Shown piece by piece: positions 11,701 through 22,764 of a DNA stretch of 64,000 nt (positions within the stretch are counted from its first letter, which is position 1; every line of letters starts with the position of its first letter). Source of the DNA: Poecilobothrus nobilitatus (taxonomy: Eukaryota; Arthropoda; Insecta; Diptera; Dolichopodidae); NCBI GenBank assembly GCA_947095535.1, contig OX352774.1:9734001-9798000 (forward strand), given 5' to 3'. The notes under the pieces are model-generated. The model saw only the letters and a list, made by a program, of their open reading frames with translations. It was not told where the DNA came from and searched no databases. The position numbers and the translations under genes are program-made.

Positions 11701-14700
11701 AAAGAAGAGGATGGAAAAATTTATTCTCCTCCCTGTTTACGAACTATAGGAGCTCAAAATTTGAAAAATTTCTTTTTTTAAACACCTGTAGAACTTTTGT
11801 TTGTTGTTTTTTTTTTTTTACAAAAGTTGGACATACTTATTAGGTTAGCATGATGGCTATATAGTCATATCCAGTTTAAACATTGGATGAAATTTTATAT
11901 GTATAAAGAATAAAGATTAAAAATAAAAAAAAATTTTAAATTTTTCTTATATAAAGATCTAACCGAAATGACTATATCTTGTATCAAAAGTAGTTATATA
12001 AATTTACACAGACTGTTTTAATAGACAAGCTACTTACCTGTAAATCAAATTTTTTTTTTGTAGTTTATTCCTCTGTCCCATAAATATGACAAAGAAATTA
12101 CACAGTTTCTCTTCCAGATGTGGTTGTAAATGTCGTAAGGGGAATTATTCTTAAGACTTGCATGTGGGTTTTGAACCTACACTCCGTGTTTACAACGTAA
12201 TTTCTACGCTCTTACCCCACCGGGTCACCAAGGCCCCCAAATTTTTTTAAAAACGAAAATGAAAATTCCAGCGAGGAAAAATATAAAATAATGCAAATCA
12301 AAGTAATCAAAACGTCATGACGTTAAAATATTTATTTTATACTCCTATAACCCAAAATTTCTTTAAATCATTTTTTGCATTTAATTCTTTGTAATATTTA
12401 GAAGATTTGTATTTAATATGCTTTTGTTTGATTTCTTTACAGAGTAGTAAAAAAAAAAAAAAAAACAAAATTTTGTTAAATCCGGATACCCATAAAAAAA
12501 TTATTCTTGTAAGAATTTCAAAAATTAAGAATTACTAACGTCTCATATAATTTGCATATAAGTGTTTTTTTGTTTTCATATTTAAAATGTACATATGTAC
12601 ATATACGGAATTCAATATTTTCATTTTGGTTTATTTTATAAAATGGTCAATTTCAAAACAAAACAAAAAAAATTAAAAAAAAAACCAATTTATGATCATA
12701 ACATTCTATTAAATCTTTTTCAGATCATAAGTAGATGATATCTACTACAAAAGATTTATTTTTTATTTTTTTTTTTTACTTTTCAAAAGTCTCTCTTAAA
12801 TTTTCAAAAGTAATTAAAAAATTAAAATTTACATTTCAATTTTATGTCCATTCCTTTATATATATATACATTCATTCCATTCATTCAATTCATTCAATTC
12901 GTTCAATTCATTAAATCAGAATTCAAAATAAAATTCATAAATGTAAATGTATGTATACAAAATTGCACTAATTAAATGCAGATTTAATCATTTTATAGTT
13001 GCAACAATTGCAACAATTCTTTTAAGAAAATAACAAAATTAAAAAAAAAAACAATACTTTTGTTTCTGCAACAAGAGCACTAACAACAACACCACAATAA
13101 CTATAAACTACAACAAAAGAAATAAAATTTTTTTTTTTATTTTATATTTCTTAATGCTTTCTAGAAGGGATGCAATCAGATTTGCATAAAATTAAAAGTT
13201 GCTTCAACCAGAACATGACTTTAAAACAATAATATAGATATAATGTAATTATTATTTTGATAATTTTAATAATCTTAAAAATCTGTTTTACTTTTTGAAA
13301 GATTTTTTCTTAAAAGTTTTATTTAATTTAATCTATTAGTTCAAAAAAAAAATAAATGCACTTTTCGAACATCGATAGAGTTTTGATATCAAATAAAAAT
13401 ATTATGAATGATAAAATCGTGTTAATGTAATTTAAAAAATTTACTTTAATAAATTTCTTAAAATATGTTTGAAAATTAGAGCTTCCAAAAGACAAAATAT
13501 TGTAGAAGAAAGAAAAAATTTGTATAGTAACAAAAAATATTTTTTTTATTACCCATATATATAGGTACCCGTAGTTGATTACCTTAGATCTGATATAATT
13601 TCTATAATAATTTCTACAATATCTTGTCTCAGCAACAAGGGATCAATTTTGTTTATCATTGTGTTCCTTAAAAGAGTTTGAATTAAAAAATATTTCCTCA
13701 GTTGTTACTTCGTAGACATTTCAAGCTTCTGCAATTCTCAGATTTAGACTATGTTGTTAATATCGTAATCCAACCAATGGTGTAATTGATTAAGACACAG
13801 ATATTTATATTCAAAAGTTTTACTGAACTTTCATTCGGGTCTCGTTGTTGCAAGTTTTTTTGTTTTAAGCTTCTGAAATTTCCGAATTAAGAAATTATTG
13901 TAAATTCTGTCAATGATGGTGTAATTGGTTAAGATACTGACCTTCCCTTCGAAAGGCCTCGACTTGAAACCCCGGTGCATTTATATAGAATGCATTGAAA
14001 ATAAAGTAGCAAATTAGAATTATGGAAAATAAGGAAATCAAAATTGTTTTCTGAATTGTAAAAACCTTTAAGTACATGAAAGTTAAAGTTGATAGACAAA
14101 GAAGAAAAATATTTATATAAAGTATAACACATTTATTAAATTAAGTGTTATACATACATACTTGATATAATTATTAGTTTAGGAATATGTAATAAAATAA
14201 TAAAAAAAAAATAATTCTTGTATAAGATAATAGATGGCGCATAAATAAAAATATTTATCTGCGTTTCTTAGTCCTTAATAATTTTACAATAGATGCAGCC
14301 GAGTAGTTGACAGCTTAGTGGAACTAATGATTCTAGAAACTGAAGCTTATTGAAATATGACTAATAGATGACTTAGTAAATATACTCTATGCTGCGTATA
14401 AAAAATATATATTCTGTAACTTCAAAAATACTTGTTCAGAAGTAGCCTTTTGTAAGTATATTTTTTTTTTGTTTTTTATTCTTTTTCTTTCACGCTTTCA
14501 TTTTAGAATACTTTGTTCCAATTAGAGGTAAAATTCACTTTCATGTATCTTTATTCGTGAGGTTGTTTAACTCTTAAAATTTTGAAATTCGAATTAAAAA
14601 CTTTGATTTTATTTCCCCCAATTCTATTCGTAAATTCTTATATAATATTTTCAAACCTTGTTTATTAATTTTTAAGCTTAACTTTTAAATTACAGCAACT

Positions 14701-17134
14701 TAAATATACCACTTTGTACGTAATAGTGTATGTATACTGATGAAGAACCAAATATTCATTTTTCATATATTAGATTAAATCTGATTCAATCTGATTTCAA
14801 TTTTATTGGTACCATTTTGAATATTATAAAATTATTGATGATATTGGTCCATTTTCGTATATCTTTTATCTTATATTGATTTTTTTAATTTTTGGCACAT
14901 AAATATTAGAATTTTTTTGTTTTTATATTTTTATTTAACATTGTCTGACATTTAAGAAAAATGAATAAACGTCTGAGATTGCAAAATTTAGAATGTGATT
15001 TAGACTCTTAAAGTTTTATGTTTCGAATAAAAAATATAATATTAATTCCAATAATTTTTTTTTTACAATTTGAGTCATTTATAGACAAAACAGAGATTGT
15101 TGAAAGTAAAGACCAAAATATAAAAAAAAAATAAAAAATAAATAATCCATAAATAGATTGAAATATTGAAAAGTAGTTAGAATTTTATTTGTATATTGGT
15201 CTTAAATGTATAACAATAAAGATGATGAAAACTTACAATGTTAAAGTTTGAATAGCAGTTGAAAGAATTATTATAGGATATACCTAATATAAATGGGTAA
15301 TTAGGTGTGATTAATTAACATTAATTTTTTTAAGAAATCTAACTATGATTGTAACAAATGAATCAAATTTAAAAAAAAAATAAACAAAAATCAAACTTAC
15401 AGAATTGTATTTATAACTGTTATACGTGCACAATAAGCTACATTGTTCCTCCTGCTAATCTTCCAAATGTTATTTAAGCAGTTCAGTGATTTATTGGACT
15501 ATTAGTTTTTCGATTCTTTAACTAATATAACTATAGACAATTTTGCCCATAATGGAAAAAAATCTTAAAGCAGTTTCTAAGAGTCGGAAAATGAATAGTA
15601 AGATTTGTGTTCGAGGTTCGAAATGATTGGAAAAAATTAAAGAGCTTTCCTGCATTTCTTTCAGAAAAATTTATTGCACGGCAACACTTAATTTAATAAA
15701 TAGGTGTGTTTATTAGTCTGTCCTAGAACGATCTAGAACAACCTAGAACTGGTTTTTGCGTTCATTAGTTTCAGAACTGTGTTTTTTTTTTTGTCTGAAA
15801 GTGTTCTAATTTGTGTTCATTAAGTTGTCTGAAAGTGTTCTAGGTTCTAGGTTGTAGAAAGTGTCTAGGTTCTAAATTTTTTTAAGAACTGTTTTGGACA
15901 AGATTTTTTGTTGTTGTTTTTTTTTTTTAAATTTTGACAGATACATGTAATGTTTATTAATAATTTTTCTTTTAGTGAAAAATGGTGAAAAAATTGAATT
16001 TGTGAAAATTGAAAAAAAATTTAAACATTAAAGATTAGACATTAAAGATATTAAAGAATAATAATAAAATTTTTTTGACAACTGAAAAAGTAGAACAAAA
16101 AAGTACAAAAAAGCGTTCATTAGTTTTTCTGTGCTAAGTTGTTCTAAAGTGTTTGACGTTTAATTGTATGCTGTTCTGTTCTAAATTTAATAAACACACC
16201 TAATGTGTTATACTTTATATAAATATTTTTAACTTTAACTTTTATGTACTTAGAGGTTTTTACAATTCAGAAAACAATTTTGATTTCCTGATTTTTCATA
16301 ATACTAAAAATGTAGTCTTAACTTAGCTTAACCTGCATATCATCATCCGACTTACCATGTTAAATCCAGATATTTCCGTGCTACTTCATTTTCAATGCAT
16401 TCTTTATTGGTGTACTATATTTAAATTTGAATCTTTGATGATTTCTATAGTGTTTATTCTAATCATTTTAGTTTTAATTATACATACATATATGTATATT
16501 AATTAGCTTGTGAAAACTTTTCTAAAATGTTTCTTTTGAAATTTTTCTAACTGATTATTTAAATTGTGTTAAACTCATTAAATCGGCCGGTTATAATTAA
16601 AATTAAGTACCTACACTTACCTGTTAATTAAATTAAAATTATGTCTAATAAAACCAAAAAAAAAAAAAACACAATTTAAACATATATGTATGTATTATTC
16701 TAAACGTTACTTCAATTAAATAATAATGTAATAATAATAATTTTAATTTAATGTAATTTATATGAATTTCTAAGAAAATAAAAATTCATGTGAATTTTTA
16801 ACTGGAAAACAATCGAGTTATAAGTAGAGCACCATCACTTGTTATGTGGTCGCGTTTTTATAATATAAAAAAAAAATAAAAATAAAAATCAAAAGATTTC
16901 AATATTAAAATGCTTCCAATTTACTTTACAATACAAGTTTCGTTTTTTTTTTCATGATTTTTGAATAGAACTGCCTGGGACTCCTCAGCATTCAAAATGA
17001 AAAAATATAAAAAAAAAAAAAATAATAAAAAATTTACAGTCTAGTCAATTCAAGGATGAAATTTACTTGTATGCCAATCAAATTGGTAATCAATTTACCA
17101 ATTAAAGTTTATATATTATAATAATAATTATATG

Positions 17135-17169
<35 letters not shown>

Positions 17170-18083
17170 ATATGTAAGTTTAAACTTTAAAGAGATGAAC
17201 TTTAATATTATAACCAGATTTAAAAACAAAAAAAACACCAATTTTCGTAATTGAATGAGTGAACTGAAATTGATGTCTTTTATATATTAATTTTTTATTT
17301 TTTTTTATTTTTTGGTTCTCATTAATTGTGAAATTTCAGATCATTTTTATTATAGTGTTATAGATGCAAAACATATAAATTTTTTTTCGAAACTATTGTT
17401 TTGCCTTATTATGGAGTTAAAAAAAAAAAAAAAACATGTTGAATTATTTATTTTTTTTCCAAATAAGGATTTAATGTCAATAAATAATTCTAGTTTTAAA
17501 TTTTTTTTTTTTTGGAGTTAGTTTATTTCTATTGCTAAAAGCTATATTAGAATAATGATAAGAACCATAATTGAGACTATCGATATAGAAAATCATTTCA
17601 TGATTTCGGCACTTTTATACAAATCTTTTTTTTTTTTTTTATTAAGTAAACCCCCTATATAATATTTTCACTAATTCTTTTATTTTTATTTTTATATATT
17701 TATAGCAAATTGAAGGTTATGAACCTGGTATAGATTATCCAGCATATGATACAGTACCGAGAGGATTATCATTTTCATGTCAAGGACGTCTTCCAGGCTA
17801 TTATGCAGATACTGAAACACGTTGCCAAGTATATATATACACGCATTTCATTTAAAATTATTTTAATATTTTATTACTTATAATTTATTTTTTGATTTTT
17901 TAGGTATGGCATTGGTGTCTTCATTCTGGTCATTTATATTCATTCCTTTGTCCAAACGGTACAGTTTTTAATCAAGCTGTACGTGTTTGTGATTGGTGGA
18001 CAAATGTTAATTGTCCTGCATCTGAACAATTATATGATAATAATGATGAATTGTATAGAGATGCAGCTGGAAATCCTATTTGA
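2638..18083 (+). CDS. Secreted one-domain chitin-binding protein (CPAP1-type), three exons, first stop at TGA
   Basis: Joined exons 2638-2721, 17706-17828 and 17904-18083 give 128 residues before a TGA. Residues 1-28 form a signal peptide (hydrophobic core LCATLVFGLFIM). The mature part starts QIEGYEPGIDYPAYD and carries one chitin-binding type-2 (CBM_14) domain with six cysteines at 53, 68, 74, 85, 98 and 106; spacings of 5 residues between the 2nd and 3rd and 12 between the 4th and 5th are typical. Aromatics around VWHWC and CDWW and the sequon NGT (87-89) also fit. Both introns are phase 0 with GT/AG ends. From family knowledge, such proteins are secreted and bind chitin in cuticle; a tracheal or epidermal role is inference. 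The start codon was chosen because it alone gives a signal peptide running into a GTAAGT donor. The frame continues past the TGA (separate entry). No orthologue name is assigned. Confidence 0.9.
3998..4142 (-). repeat. S3 dispersed repeat, copy B, inverted
   Basis: The reverse complement reads CTAATGATTTCAGAAACTGA, then AATGATAAAAAACTTAGTGG and GAGTGGAAAGGAAATAAAAA, matching the S3 repeat including its A-rich end at the low-coordinate side. It lies in intron 1. Confidence 0.5.
7140..7731 (+). pseudogene. LINE fragment: C-terminal reverse transcriptase region, decayed
   Basis: Broken frames give KYLGCWLQEDWNSEKEIKCR, ARNAFFKFKKLLCIYKMNLS, then after a stop the longer open piece at 7358-7585 with ALRHLKWG/IEAFEMG, ILWVYHVTNEEVLKTMN and LIIQGKIKRKRNVGRKQLS, continuing SWLRNIRNWTGITNIGDLIH. 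These are the well-known C-terminal motifs of insect non-LTR retrotransposon polyproteins (EAFEMW, WVDHVTNEEVL, GKRxxGRR). The end GCAGCTAAAGAAGAAGAA resembles the short simple 3' tail of RTE-type elements; clade assignment is tentative. Stops and frameshifts show it is dead. It sits in the sense direction in intron 1. Confidence 0.75.
9621..9715 (+). repeat. S1 tRNA-derived SINE copy
   Basis: CCAATGGTGTAATTTTTGAGAC (degenerate A box) followed by GGCTTAGATCCCGGCTG (degenerate B box) and an A-rich tail AATAAAAAAAATAA. It matches the better preserved minus-strand copy at 59365-59470. Confidence 0.6.
9850..9985 (+). repeat. S3 dispersed repeat, copy C
   Basis: Starts ATAAGATAATAGATGGCGCA, identical to the start of copies D and E, then GATTCTAGAAACTGAAGCTT and ATAAATGACTTAGTGGAAG, ending AGAAAGGAAAAAAA. 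The middle portion is shorter than in copy D. In intron 1. Confidence 0.6.
12050..12240 (-). repeat. S2 tRNA-derived SINE, inverted copy
   Basis: The reverse complement starts GGGGCCTTGGTGACCCGGTG, has a B-box-like GTAGGTTCAAAACCCAC, the body ATTCCCCTTACGAC and TATTTATGGGACAGAGGAAT, and ends in an A tail (the T run near 12051). Same family as 20971-21174 (+) and 56530-56712 (-). Confidence 0.75.
12868..12914. repeat. Degenerate (CATT)n / (TTCAA)n microsatellite
   Basis: Successive units CATTCATTCCATTCATTCAA, then ttcattcaattcgttcaattcatt. No further structure. Confidence 0.7.
13770..13850 (+). repeat. S1 SINE copy, first of a tandem pair
   Basis: CCAACCAATGGTGTAATTGA then TTAAGACACAG, with a decayed B-box side (TCATTCGGGTCTCG). 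With upstream sequence CAAGCTTCTGCAATTCTCAG it is repeated about 140 bp downstream, so the two copies form a tandem duplication. Confidence 0.5.
13911..13985 (+). repeat. S1 SINE copy, second of a tandem pair
   Basis: AATGATGGTGTAATTGGTTA, TTCGAAAGGCCTCGACTTG, AACCCCGGTGC. It is preceded by AAGCTTCTGAAATTTCCGAA, like the first copy, and is followed directly by the repeat also found at 16202-16420. Confidence 0.5.
13982..14152 (-). repeat. Dispersed repeat copy with an unoccupied MITE target site
   Basis: The reverse complement (CACTTAATTTAATAAATGTG, TTATACTTTATATAAATA, GGTTTTTACAATTCAGAAAA, TTTATTTTCAATGCATTC) matches sequence on both sides of the 500-bp element at 15702-16201. It therefore preserves the empty insertion site; the 3-bp target is ATT on this strand at 14131-14133. 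Confidence 0.7.
14221..14410 (+). repeat. S3 dispersed repeat, copy D (longest)
   Basis: Begins TATAAGATAATAGATGGCGC, then GATGCAGCCGAGTAGTTGAC, AGCTTAGTGGAACTAATGAT, TCTAGAAACTGAAGCTTATT and GATGACTTAGTAAATA. It carries both the 5' block shared with copies C and E and the middle block shared with copy A, so it best defines the full unit of about 190 bp. Confidence 0.65.
15702..16201. mobile_element. 500-bp MITE with AGGTGTGTTTATTA ends and AAT target duplication
   Basis: 14-bp terminal inverted repeats AGGTGTGTTTATTA, flanked by AAT on both sides (15699-15701 and 16202-16204). The empty site in a related repeat (about 14121-14150, inverted) confirms the borders and a 3-bp duplication. Inside are direct repeats (GCGTTCATTAGTTT at about 15759 and 16114; CTGAAAGTGTTCTA twice; CTAGGTTCTAGGTTGTAG) and no coding frame. 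A 3-bp duplication fits PIF/Harbinger or CACTA-like transposases better than mariner (TA) or hAT (8 bp), but the end sequence is not one I recognise. Confidence 0.75.
16202..16420 (+). repeat. Dispersed repeat split by the MITE (with 15681-15701)
   Basis: AATGTGTTATACTTTATATA and GGTTTTTACAATTCAGAAAA continue the copy begun at 15681-15701 and match the inverted copy 13982-14152. This copy has about 80 bp extra before GCTACTTCATTTTCAATG. Confidence 0.6.
17139..17165. repeat. (TA)n microsatellite in intron 1
   Basis: Uninterrupted TA repeat flanked by TATG units. Confidence 0.9.
17706..17828 (+). CDS. Exon 2: first part of chitin-binding domain
   Basis: 41 codons, phase 0 at both ends, preceded by a pyrimidine tract and ending CGTTGCCAA before donor GTATAT. 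It encodes the linker QIEGYEPGIDYPAYD and the domain start with the first two cysteines (SFSCQGRLPGYYAD, TETRCQ). Base composition is less extreme than in the flanking intron. Confidence 0.92.
17829..17903 (+). other. Second intron, 75 bp
   Basis: GTATATATATAC at the 5' end and TTTTTTGATTTTTTAG at the 3' end, phase 0. It separates Cys-Gln from Val-Trp-His-Trp-Cys inside the chitin-binding domain. Confidence 0.88.
17904..18083 (+). CDS. Exon 3: rest of chitin-binding domain up to in-frame TGA
   Basis: 59 sense codons, then TGA (18081-18083). It encodes VWHWCLHSGHLYSF, LCPNGTVFNQ and VRVCDWWTNVNC with the last four cysteines, then an acidic tail SEQLYDNNDELYRDAAGNPI. The frame matches exons 1 and 2 exactly. 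The same frame stays open after the TGA, so this exon physically extends to at least 18866. Confidence 0.9.
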   Translation, partial: VWHWCLHSGHLYSFLCPNGTVFNQAVRVCDWWTNVNCPASEQLYDNNDELYRDAAGNPI

Positions 18084-18866
18084 TATGAGGCGAAAAAATA
18101 TCAAAATTTATCATCAGTTATTAATAAGAATAAAACAAAATTTGAAAGAATAATTGAAACTACAACCAGAAAATCAACATTAACATCAAATTTAATTAAA
18201 TCACAATATTCGAAAAATTTAATTTCAACATCAACATTATCATCAATATCATCGTCATCATTAAAATCTTTAAAATTACAATCAATAAATCAAAATCATC
18301 GTAATAACAATAATTTTATATCAACTGCAATACCATATAGAATTTCAACTAATACAGATATAGATGCTCATCATGGGCGTAAAAGACTGCATCAAAAACC
18401 AAATTCAATAGAACCAAATAAAAATATAAACAGCCAGTATAAAAATAATAATTACAATTATGATAATAAATATTTAATTAATAATATTAGTAAAAAAGAA
18501 AATCATAATAAAATTAGTGCAGTAACAGATTCTTTATTAACAACAATAAATTTTACAACAATAGCACCAAAATATACAAGAATAATGCAAAATAATTTTA
18601 GAGGTTCATCTAAATATATTAATAGTAATAAATTAACCCAAAGTAATAACAATAGTAATAATAATAATAATAATAATAGAAAAAATAATAGTAATAGCAA
18701 TAGACAAAGTAAAAGTAGTAAAAATAAACAAAAATTTAATTCAAATTCTATAAATTCAGAAGATGATGTATTAAAAGATTATAAAAGTATGATTAAAAAT
18801 AAATATAATATTGATTATGATCATTCGTTAGATGATGAATACGAAATTATTGAGGCCATCGAATAG
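18084..18866 (+). CDS. In-frame 260-codon extension after the TGA (candidate stop-codon readthrough)
   Basis: Directly after the TGA at 18081, in the same frame, 260 sense codons run to a TAG at 18864. The translation is rich in Asn, Ser, Lys and Thr, has a run of seven Asn near 18657-18677, a basic patch (HHGRKRLHQK, from about 18370) and an acidic end (DYDHSLDDEYEIIEAIE). At this AT content a random frame should meet a stop about every ten codons, so the frame has been kept open by selection or opened very recently. Frequent TCA, AAT and AAA codons look like real low-complexity protein. Options: UGA readthrough, a recent nonsense mutation or assembly error in a longer protein, or an unseen splice form. 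An ATG-started piece lies inside (18585). No known domain is recognised. Confidence 0.6.
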   Translation, partial: YEAKKYQNLSSVINKNKTKFERIIETTTRKSTLTSNLIKSQYSKNLISTSTLSSISSSSLKSLKLQSINQNHRNNNNFISTAIPYRISTNTDIDAHHGRKRLHQKPNSIEPNKNINSQYKNNNYNYDNKYLINNISKKENHNKISAVTDSLLTTINFTTIAPKYTRIMQNNFRGSSKYINSNKLTQSNNNSNNNNNNNRKNNSNSNRQSKSSKNKQKFNSNSINSEDDVLKDYKSMIKNKYNIDYDHSLDDEYEIIEAIE

Positions 18867-21566: not shown

Positions 21567-22764
21567 TATAGGGTGTTCAAAATTGAGGTATTATTTTGAT
21601 TTTGCAGCCATTTTTTTTTCTACCTGGAATTTTTATACGAGATTTCTTTAGGTATATTCTAAATACATTCCGGTTAGTTAATAACGTTACATGAAGGAAC
21701 GACGTGTTTTTGTTATTACAACATTTTTTGAAAATGGTAAAAGTTTTCAAGATGTAATTAGGAAATTTCGAACAAAATTTGGTAGAGAAAATGCTCCAAC
21801 AAATCGTGCCATCAAGCTGATGGTTGATAAATTTCTAGAAACTGGATCTGTTCTTGATAACAGAGGCAACATTTATCAACGTAGTGGCCGTTCAACCGAG
21901 AATGTAGCAGAAGTGTTGAAGAAGATCCAAAAACTTCCATTCGTCATCGTTCGCAGCAATTAAATATCAAACCATCCACATTATTCAACATTTTGCATCG
22001 TGATCTCCATTTAAAGGCTTATAAGATCCAGCTGACGCAAGAATTAAAACCAACTGACCATGCTCAATGGCTACGTCAATAAACAGAATTGCCGCATTTG
22101 GGGTGAAGAGAATCCAAGGGTTATCTTAGAGCAACCAGTACATCCACAAAAATTTACGGTTTGGTGTGGTTTGTGGTCAGGAGGAATCATCGGACCGCAT
22201 TTTTTTGAAAACGCAAATGGAAATGCGATTACGGTCAATGGAAATCGCTACAGGGAGATGATCCGAAGCTTTTTGTGGCGGGAAATTGATGATTTGGACG
22301 TAGAGAATATGTGGTTTCAACAGGACGGTGCCACTTGCTACACAGCAAGAGAAACAATGGATTTTTTGAAGGAAAAGTTCGTAGATCGCATTATTTCTCG
22401 TAGCCTCCTCTACGATGTGGTGTGATAAGATCGTGCGATTTGACACCGTTGGATTTTTTTTTGTGGGGTTTTGTGAAATCGAAAGTGTATAGCAATAATC
22501 CCACAACAATTCAAGAGCTTAAAAACAACATTATCGAGCAGATTTCAACCATTGAGAACAGTTTATTGAACAACGTGATTCAGGATTTTGTTAAAAGATT
22601 GGAAGCCTACCGAAGTGGTAGAGGGGGCCACTTGGCTGATATAATTTTTCATTATTAACTGGAACCTATTTGTAATAAATTAAAATAAAAATATATTTAA
22701 TATTTCAAAAAAAAGTCTTTTTTTATTAAAATTAAAATGATACCTCAATTTTGAACACCCTATA
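21567..22764 (+). mobile_element. Defective mariner-family transposon with near-intact inverted ends
   Basis: The ends TATAGGGTGTTCAAAATTGA... (21567-21603) and their inverted copy (22728-22764) match at 35 of 37 positions, the outer 24 perfectly. TA dinucleotides flank the ends, the mariner/Tc1 target. The element is about 1.2 kb and encodes a broken transposase (separate entry). The nearly identical ends show recent mobility, probably with transposase supplied by another copy. Confidence 0.9.
21691..22658 (+). pseudogene. Mariner-type transposase, frameshifted and internally deleted
   Basis: An N-terminal helix-turn-helix part (MKERRVFVITTFFENGKSFQ, about 75 residues) reads in one frame, then shifts near 21910 to VEEDPKTSIRHRSQQLNI and STLFNILHRDLHLKAYKIQL. 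At about 22065 the text jumps to LNGYVNKQNCRIWGEENP; the stretch that normally carries the first catalytic Asp is missing, so an internal deletion is inferred. The core WCGLWSGGIIGPHFFEN and WFQQDGATCYTA (second Asp) is present to 22400. A further frameshift leads to SCDLTPLDFFLWGFVKSKVY (third Asp) and a stop at 22656. It cannot make active enzyme. Confidence 0.9.

Follow-up and report, generated by a model that had tools for sequence, protein, structure and literature searches.

Flies, mosquitoes and bees make abundant use of stop-codon readthrough, as the main texts of three papers report (PMC4528330, PMC5100048, PMC7826183). UGA is described as the commonest stop among 328 fly genes annotated with readthrough, whose long extensions mix low-complexity and conserved parts (PMC4528330), and a study of the bumblebee lists 851 readthrough candidates, at least 306 of them functional, with TGA-C as the favoured context (PMC7826183). 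The main texts consulted also describe readthrough stops that are orthologous between fly and mosquito (PMC5100048), stem-loops that promote readthrough (PMC13170385) and readthrough extensions that are disordered (PMC4999894). Here we analysed a plus-strand gene in a stretch of 64,000 nucleotides of the fly Poecilobothrus nobilitatus (contig OX352774.1; the window), in which the reading frame of a putative secreted chitin-binding protein meets a TGA and then stays open for another 260 codons. The best explanation is, with high probability, a conserved programmed UGA readthrough that would give products of 128 and 389 amino acids. This interpretation had been put forward in an initial annotation made from the letters of the DNA, and the comparison with relatives supports it, with the same stop place in annotated relatives and a tail conserved at the protein level in flies.

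The locus shares with programmed readthrough in insects, as the main text of PMC4528330 presents it, a kept UGA stop, an open and conserved frame beyond it and a long low-complexity tail with conserved stretches, while it differs in having T rather than C after the stop and in lacking a structure signal. A conserved extension after the stop is likewise found in drifter/vvl, headcase and kelch of Drosophila (main text of PMC13170385; headcase and kelch as cited there). However, drifter uses UAG together with a stem-loop whose stability matters, and a region with a predicted stem-loop also matters in headcase and kelch (PMC13170385, the latter two again as cited there), whereas the window gene has UGA and no stem above chance. 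With respect to the short protein, the nearest described relatives are insect proteins named U-scoloptoxin(01)-Er1a-like or -Cw1a-like, which have in common with the window gene a single CBM_14 domain, a hydrophobic leader and the C-terminal end LY-D--GN-I, but whose listed annotations give either the short form alone or a model from which the stop is missing. We take these single-domain CBM_14 proteins to be of the CPAP1 type. The gene would be a new case of a known insect phenomenon, unless it is already on the fly lists, of which Jungreis 2011 is reportedly the main published one. We found no mention of it in the main texts consulted, the name of the D. melanogaster gene being unconfirmed, and the word 'chitin' is absent from the main texts of PMC5100048, PMC3840789, PMC13170385, PMC4528330 and PMC4999894.

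A putative chitin-binding gene with an open frame beyond its stop codon

The gene lies in an AT-rich window and consists of three exons (2638-2721, 17706-17828 and 17904-18083). Exon 1 (28 codons) contains the start codon and a hydrophobic leader that resembles a signal peptide, as judged by inspection; it was located by tblastn with a protein of Condylostylus longicornis (P0001), to residues 2-27 of which it is 92% identical (E 2e-12), and it is followed by the donor GTAAGTAT. Exon 2 (41 codons), in which the CBM_14 region starts, is 95% identical to P0001 and is flanked by tatag upstream and gtatat downstream, while exon 3 (59 codons and the first stop) is preceded by ttttttag and completes the domain. 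The PF01607 (CBM_14) profile of Pfam matches exons 2 and 3 with an E value of 1.4e-14 and 54.3 bits against a cut-off of 22.1, which agrees with the original proposal that exon 3 of a chitin-binding gene ends at the TGA. Now that exon 1 has been located, the proposed lengths also hold, with 28+41+59 = 128 residues for the short form and 389 for the long form when one residue is counted at the stop. By its domain and leader, the short form would be a secreted single-domain CBM_14 protein and a putative chitin binder. Among the matches listed, P0001 is the closest database match to the joined protein, and C. longicornis is presumably a long-legged fly, so that the match would place the host among the brachyceran flies, near Condylostylus. 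The database name of P0001, 'anaphase-promoting complex subunit cdh1-like, partial', is evidently wrong, this being a CBM_14 protein with part of the tail.

The putative readthrough stop (18081-18083) is followed by the codon TAT, and the same frame stays open over 260 Asn/Ser/Lys/Thr-rich codons to a TAG at 18864-18866 (extension 18084-18866), exactly as first annotated. Chance does not account for such a run, as had also been claimed: it ranks first among the 9,813 stop-to-stop runs of the window, with a runner-up of 125 codons, and as 7.8% of the window's triplets are stops, the probability of 260 open codons is about 6e-10. Moreover, none of 20,000 Markov-1 resamples of the tail was open (mean of 24.4 stops), the remaining five frames of the tail contain 12 to 65 stops each, and the third-position GC of the tail is 0.09, compared to 0.10 in exons 2 and 3. 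Three blocks stand out within the tail on the plus strand. A basic block, GRKRLHQKPNS (18375-18407), is common to the window and Condylostylus P0001. A middle motif named FRG, APKYTRIMQNNFRGSSKY (18564-18617), and a C-terminal acidic motif, DVLKDYKSMIKNKYNIDYDHSLDDEYEIIEAIE (18765-18863), are conserved in fly proteins. A Pfam search found no family in the tail. The AlphaFold2 model of exon 3 plus tail is of low confidence throughout (mean pLDDT of 45, residues 99-282 below 50), a result that is compatible with a disordered tail and proves nothing.

The stop position and the tail in relatives

Conservation was scored at the protein level, with motif counts covering the 238 proteins listed over three homology searches (handles P0001 and following). 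The first search used the joined protein with X at the stop (best 120 of 302 proteins), the second the short form (best 120 of 154, of which 117 were new relative to the earlier listing) and the third the end of protein P0021 (E up to 10, six candidates). Among the 117 newly listed proteins, 101 hold the domain through its last cysteine according to a pattern of our own. Thirty-six of these 101 end exactly 22 residues past that cysteine with LY[KR]x7, which is the arrangement of the window gene, and 44, the 36 included, end in LY-D--GN-I or at most two residues beyond it. The other 57 include Drosophila forms with a -V end a few residues further on, tephritid forms with an -L end, beetle forms with different ends, long-tailed paralogues and crustacean proteins. 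By source name, the 44 include flies, midges, mosquitoes, wasps, bees, a lacewing, bugs, thrips, crickets, a damselfly, a termite, a springtail and a barnacle; as far as the annotated proteins tell, the stop position is kept across insect orders.

The tail was compared in the same manner. Taken alone, that of the window matches P0020 (E 5e-17), P0001 (3e-13) and P0003 (3e-12) in single comparisons, and weakly P0021 (2e-6). The C-terminal motif KNK[YF]NIDYD occurs in 15 of the 238 listed proteins, namely 10 database-named fly proteins (P0003-P0011 and P0016) and five unnamed gene calls; the FRG motif is present in seven of these 15 as well as in P0001, and missing from the other eight. Over the last 33 residues of the tail, comparison with 13 fly-type proteins gives 29 identical residues for 12 (those of Drosophila and P0020 among them) and 30 for P0011 of Ceratitis, while the CBM_14 part shows 85% identity to P0003 and 81% to P0011; the end of the tail thus appears to be conserved about as well as the domain. 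The pieces of P0021 and P0238 share 45% and 42% identity, respectively, with the C-terminal motif. Judged by these alignments, the tail is conserved protein in flies, and this conservation indicates that it is coding. The comparison of orthologues across the stop, which had been suggested as a check, shows at the protein level that both the stop position and the tail sequence are kept in other flies.

The unnamed gene calls also bear on the identity of the stop. Four of the five (P0015, P0019, P0020 and P0021) show a tryptophan at the stop place; the fifth, P0238, has a related tail and begins within it. Gene callers that work under translation table 4 render TGA as tryptophan. P0019 is identical to the D. 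innubila short form P0128 over the final 50 residues of the latter and shows a tryptophan where P0128 ends, and in P0019 and P0020 tryptophan also appears at the second stop, after EAIE, where the annotated fly proteins terminate. Tryptophan at both places implies that TGA has been translated as Trp in these gene calls; in P0019 and P0020 the first stop is therefore evidently TGA, as it likely is in P0015. P0021 combines a tryptophan at the stop place with the motif end, and its tryptophan may be a genuine TGG.

Public gene-call collections hold insect proteins with TGA apparently read as tryptophan (P0015, P0019, P0020 and P0021), which makes them a possible source of further conserved readthrough stops.

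Readthrough weighed against its alternatives

Under programmed readthrough, most ribosomes would stop at the UGA and release the 128-residue protein, while in a minority a near-cognate tRNA would decode it and translation would run on over another 260 codons. The product would be a 389-residue isoform in which the chitin-binding domain is followed by a long low-complexity tail ending in the conserved acidic motif. That translation reaches the tail in this way, how frequently it does so and what the tail does are all points that we infer; the likeliest role would be that the domain anchors the protein in chitin and the tail binds a partner or alters the matrix.

Several observations weigh against this explanation. 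The base 3' of the TGA is T, as the initial annotation stated, and differs from the leaky context TGA-C, which is favoured and not required. The TGA of relatives is deduced from translations and not from DNA, and scans of viral contigs and genome contigs for the DNA of a relative found none. The P0001 model of Condylostylus leaves out the stop stretch and gives no sign of readthrough, and P0003, P0005 and P0007 share a jump just before the place of the valine and the stop, where a GTATGA donor is conceivable. None of the matches listed is a named non-fly protein with the tail, wasps, bees, bugs and other insects being represented by the short form only. Finally, the search with the end of P0021 matched only P0021 and P0238 (two of the six candidates) and no flies, so that only a short match, of about 38-46 columns, connects these two proteins with the fly tail.

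RNA structure provides no help either. The stem TGATAT/ATATCA with its 11-base loop, which had been reported at the stop, is indeed present, and a stem of 6 to 8 bp covers the stop; what found no support is the idea that it plays a part in readthrough. The fold of 18081-18140 reaches -3.2 kcal/mol, and 54 of 200 shuffles are as good, the corresponding numbers for the other folds that contain the stem being 32/200 (18060-18140), 18/200 (18081-18200) and 80/200 (18051-18110). Over these four folds z lies between -0.1 and -1.4, and a fifth, from 18090 to 18149 and without the stop, shows no structure. RNA structure near the stop is not above chance and gives readthrough no support. With none of the five folds clearly better than shuffles, the stem-loop was rejected as a readthrough element.

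The alternative that fares best, although it is unlikely, is splicing, in which a short retained intron would hold the TGA, the long protein being encoded by transcripts that have lost it and the short protein by those that keep it. The stop stretch is skipped in Condylostylus P0001 and in the 10 named long fly models, all 10 of which lack the WYKADD that P0015 and P0019 show just after the stop. Removal of the TGA would be possible in the window through 38 frame-keeping GT-AG introns of at least 40 bases, with acceptors considered up to 18420. Thirty-four of them start inside the domain, eight with donors that fit the consensus in 6 of 9 places like the real donors, but all 34 would take out at least part of the last cysteine codon (18012). 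The other four start at 18053, a donor that fits the consensus in only 4 of 9 places, where each real donor fits in 6; its frame-keeping acceptors (18148, 18169, 18340 and 18385) have 5 to 8 pyrimidines in 16 positions against 11 and 13 in the real ones, and its use would also delete the conserved end GNPI. The earlier remark that 18053 shifts the frame with 18117 and 18128 and keeps it with 18148 was correct, but it left out 18169, 18340 and 18385, which keep the frame too. In all eight Drosophila short forms seen (P0128, P0130, P0131, P0133-P0136 and P0165) the residue before the stop is valine, so that a GTATGA donor could overlap the stop there; most short forms of the LY-D--GN-I type, however, end in isoleucine, which leaves no such donor. 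Furthermore, P0015 and P0019, which are distinct gene calls of Drosophila-like type, have WYKADDEYRIG and then RQRQF in common, and this agreement of the residues just past the stop argues against splicing around it. The junctions also vary between related species: P0004 differs around the stop from P0006 and P0009, all three presumably from related Drosophila, and such differences look like the product of gene prediction around an in-frame stop rather than biology.

A-to-I RNA editing, which would convert UGA into UGG and make the long form from edited messages, is considerably less probable than splicing. It would yield a tryptophan at the stop place, and the stem described above covers the stop, but this stem is short and no better than shuffles, and the A is preceded by G. 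ADAR disfavours a G 5' of the edited A.

We consider it less probable again that the tail is a separate protein made on the same message by reinitiation or from an internal start. The first in-frame ATG of the tail, at codon 168, lies just upstream of the FRG motif, and several fly proteins have a methionine near there. However, this methionine is isoleucine in P0019 and absent from P0020 and P0011, and as the first 167 codons, where the block common to Condylostylus is located, lack an in-frame ATG, reinitiation cannot make the whole tail.

The two remaining explanations have a negligible probability. Selenocysteine at the TGA has the codon in its favour, but none of 4,227 Rfam models, presumably with those for SECIS among them, matched anywhere in the window at gathering score; and a recent nonsense change (CGA to TGA) or an assembly error in a normally single long frame, which the initial annotation had regarded as the main rivals, would agree with a conserved coding tail but is refuted, short of a shared misannotation, by annotated relatives from many insect orders, a springtail and a barnacle, whose proteins end at this very position.

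Readthrough here would be a well-conserved insect case in a putative secreted chitin-binding protein, and it suggests that in annotation pipelines such a gene either ends with the UGA or loses the stop stretch. A joined protein of domain, stop stretch and tail does not occur among the named proteins of the three listings (best 120 of 302 and best 120 of 154 in the first two). Added weight would come from depth, that is, from a stop position common to insects and a tail motif present in at least one unplaced lineage beyond the named flies. A wider reading, which we regard as possible but rather doubtful, is an ancient origin of the readthrough; the stop that follows LY-D--GN-I would then have been kept as a working UGA switch across insects and some other Pancrustacea, and the C-terminal motif KNKYNIDYD...YEII (shared by flies with the unplaced P0021 and P0238) would be a functional secreted peptide hidden by annotation.

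Other features of the window

The intron between exons 1 and 2 contains near-perfect inverted arms at 14014-14133 and 16202-16307, about 2.1 kb apart and complementary over 77 nt (94%) and 29 nt (100%), together with a further inverted pair at 13983-14011 and 16379-16407. The arms suggest that a foldback or terminal-inverted-repeat element has inserted into the gene. By eye, 12150-12240 and 13925-13980 resemble pieces of tRNA-derived repeats; neither gave a result with ARAGORN or with Rfam at gathering score. Finally, an open frame at 21685-21960 encodes a DUF4817 helix-turn-helix domain (E 5.4e-16) and is probably a transposon remnant.

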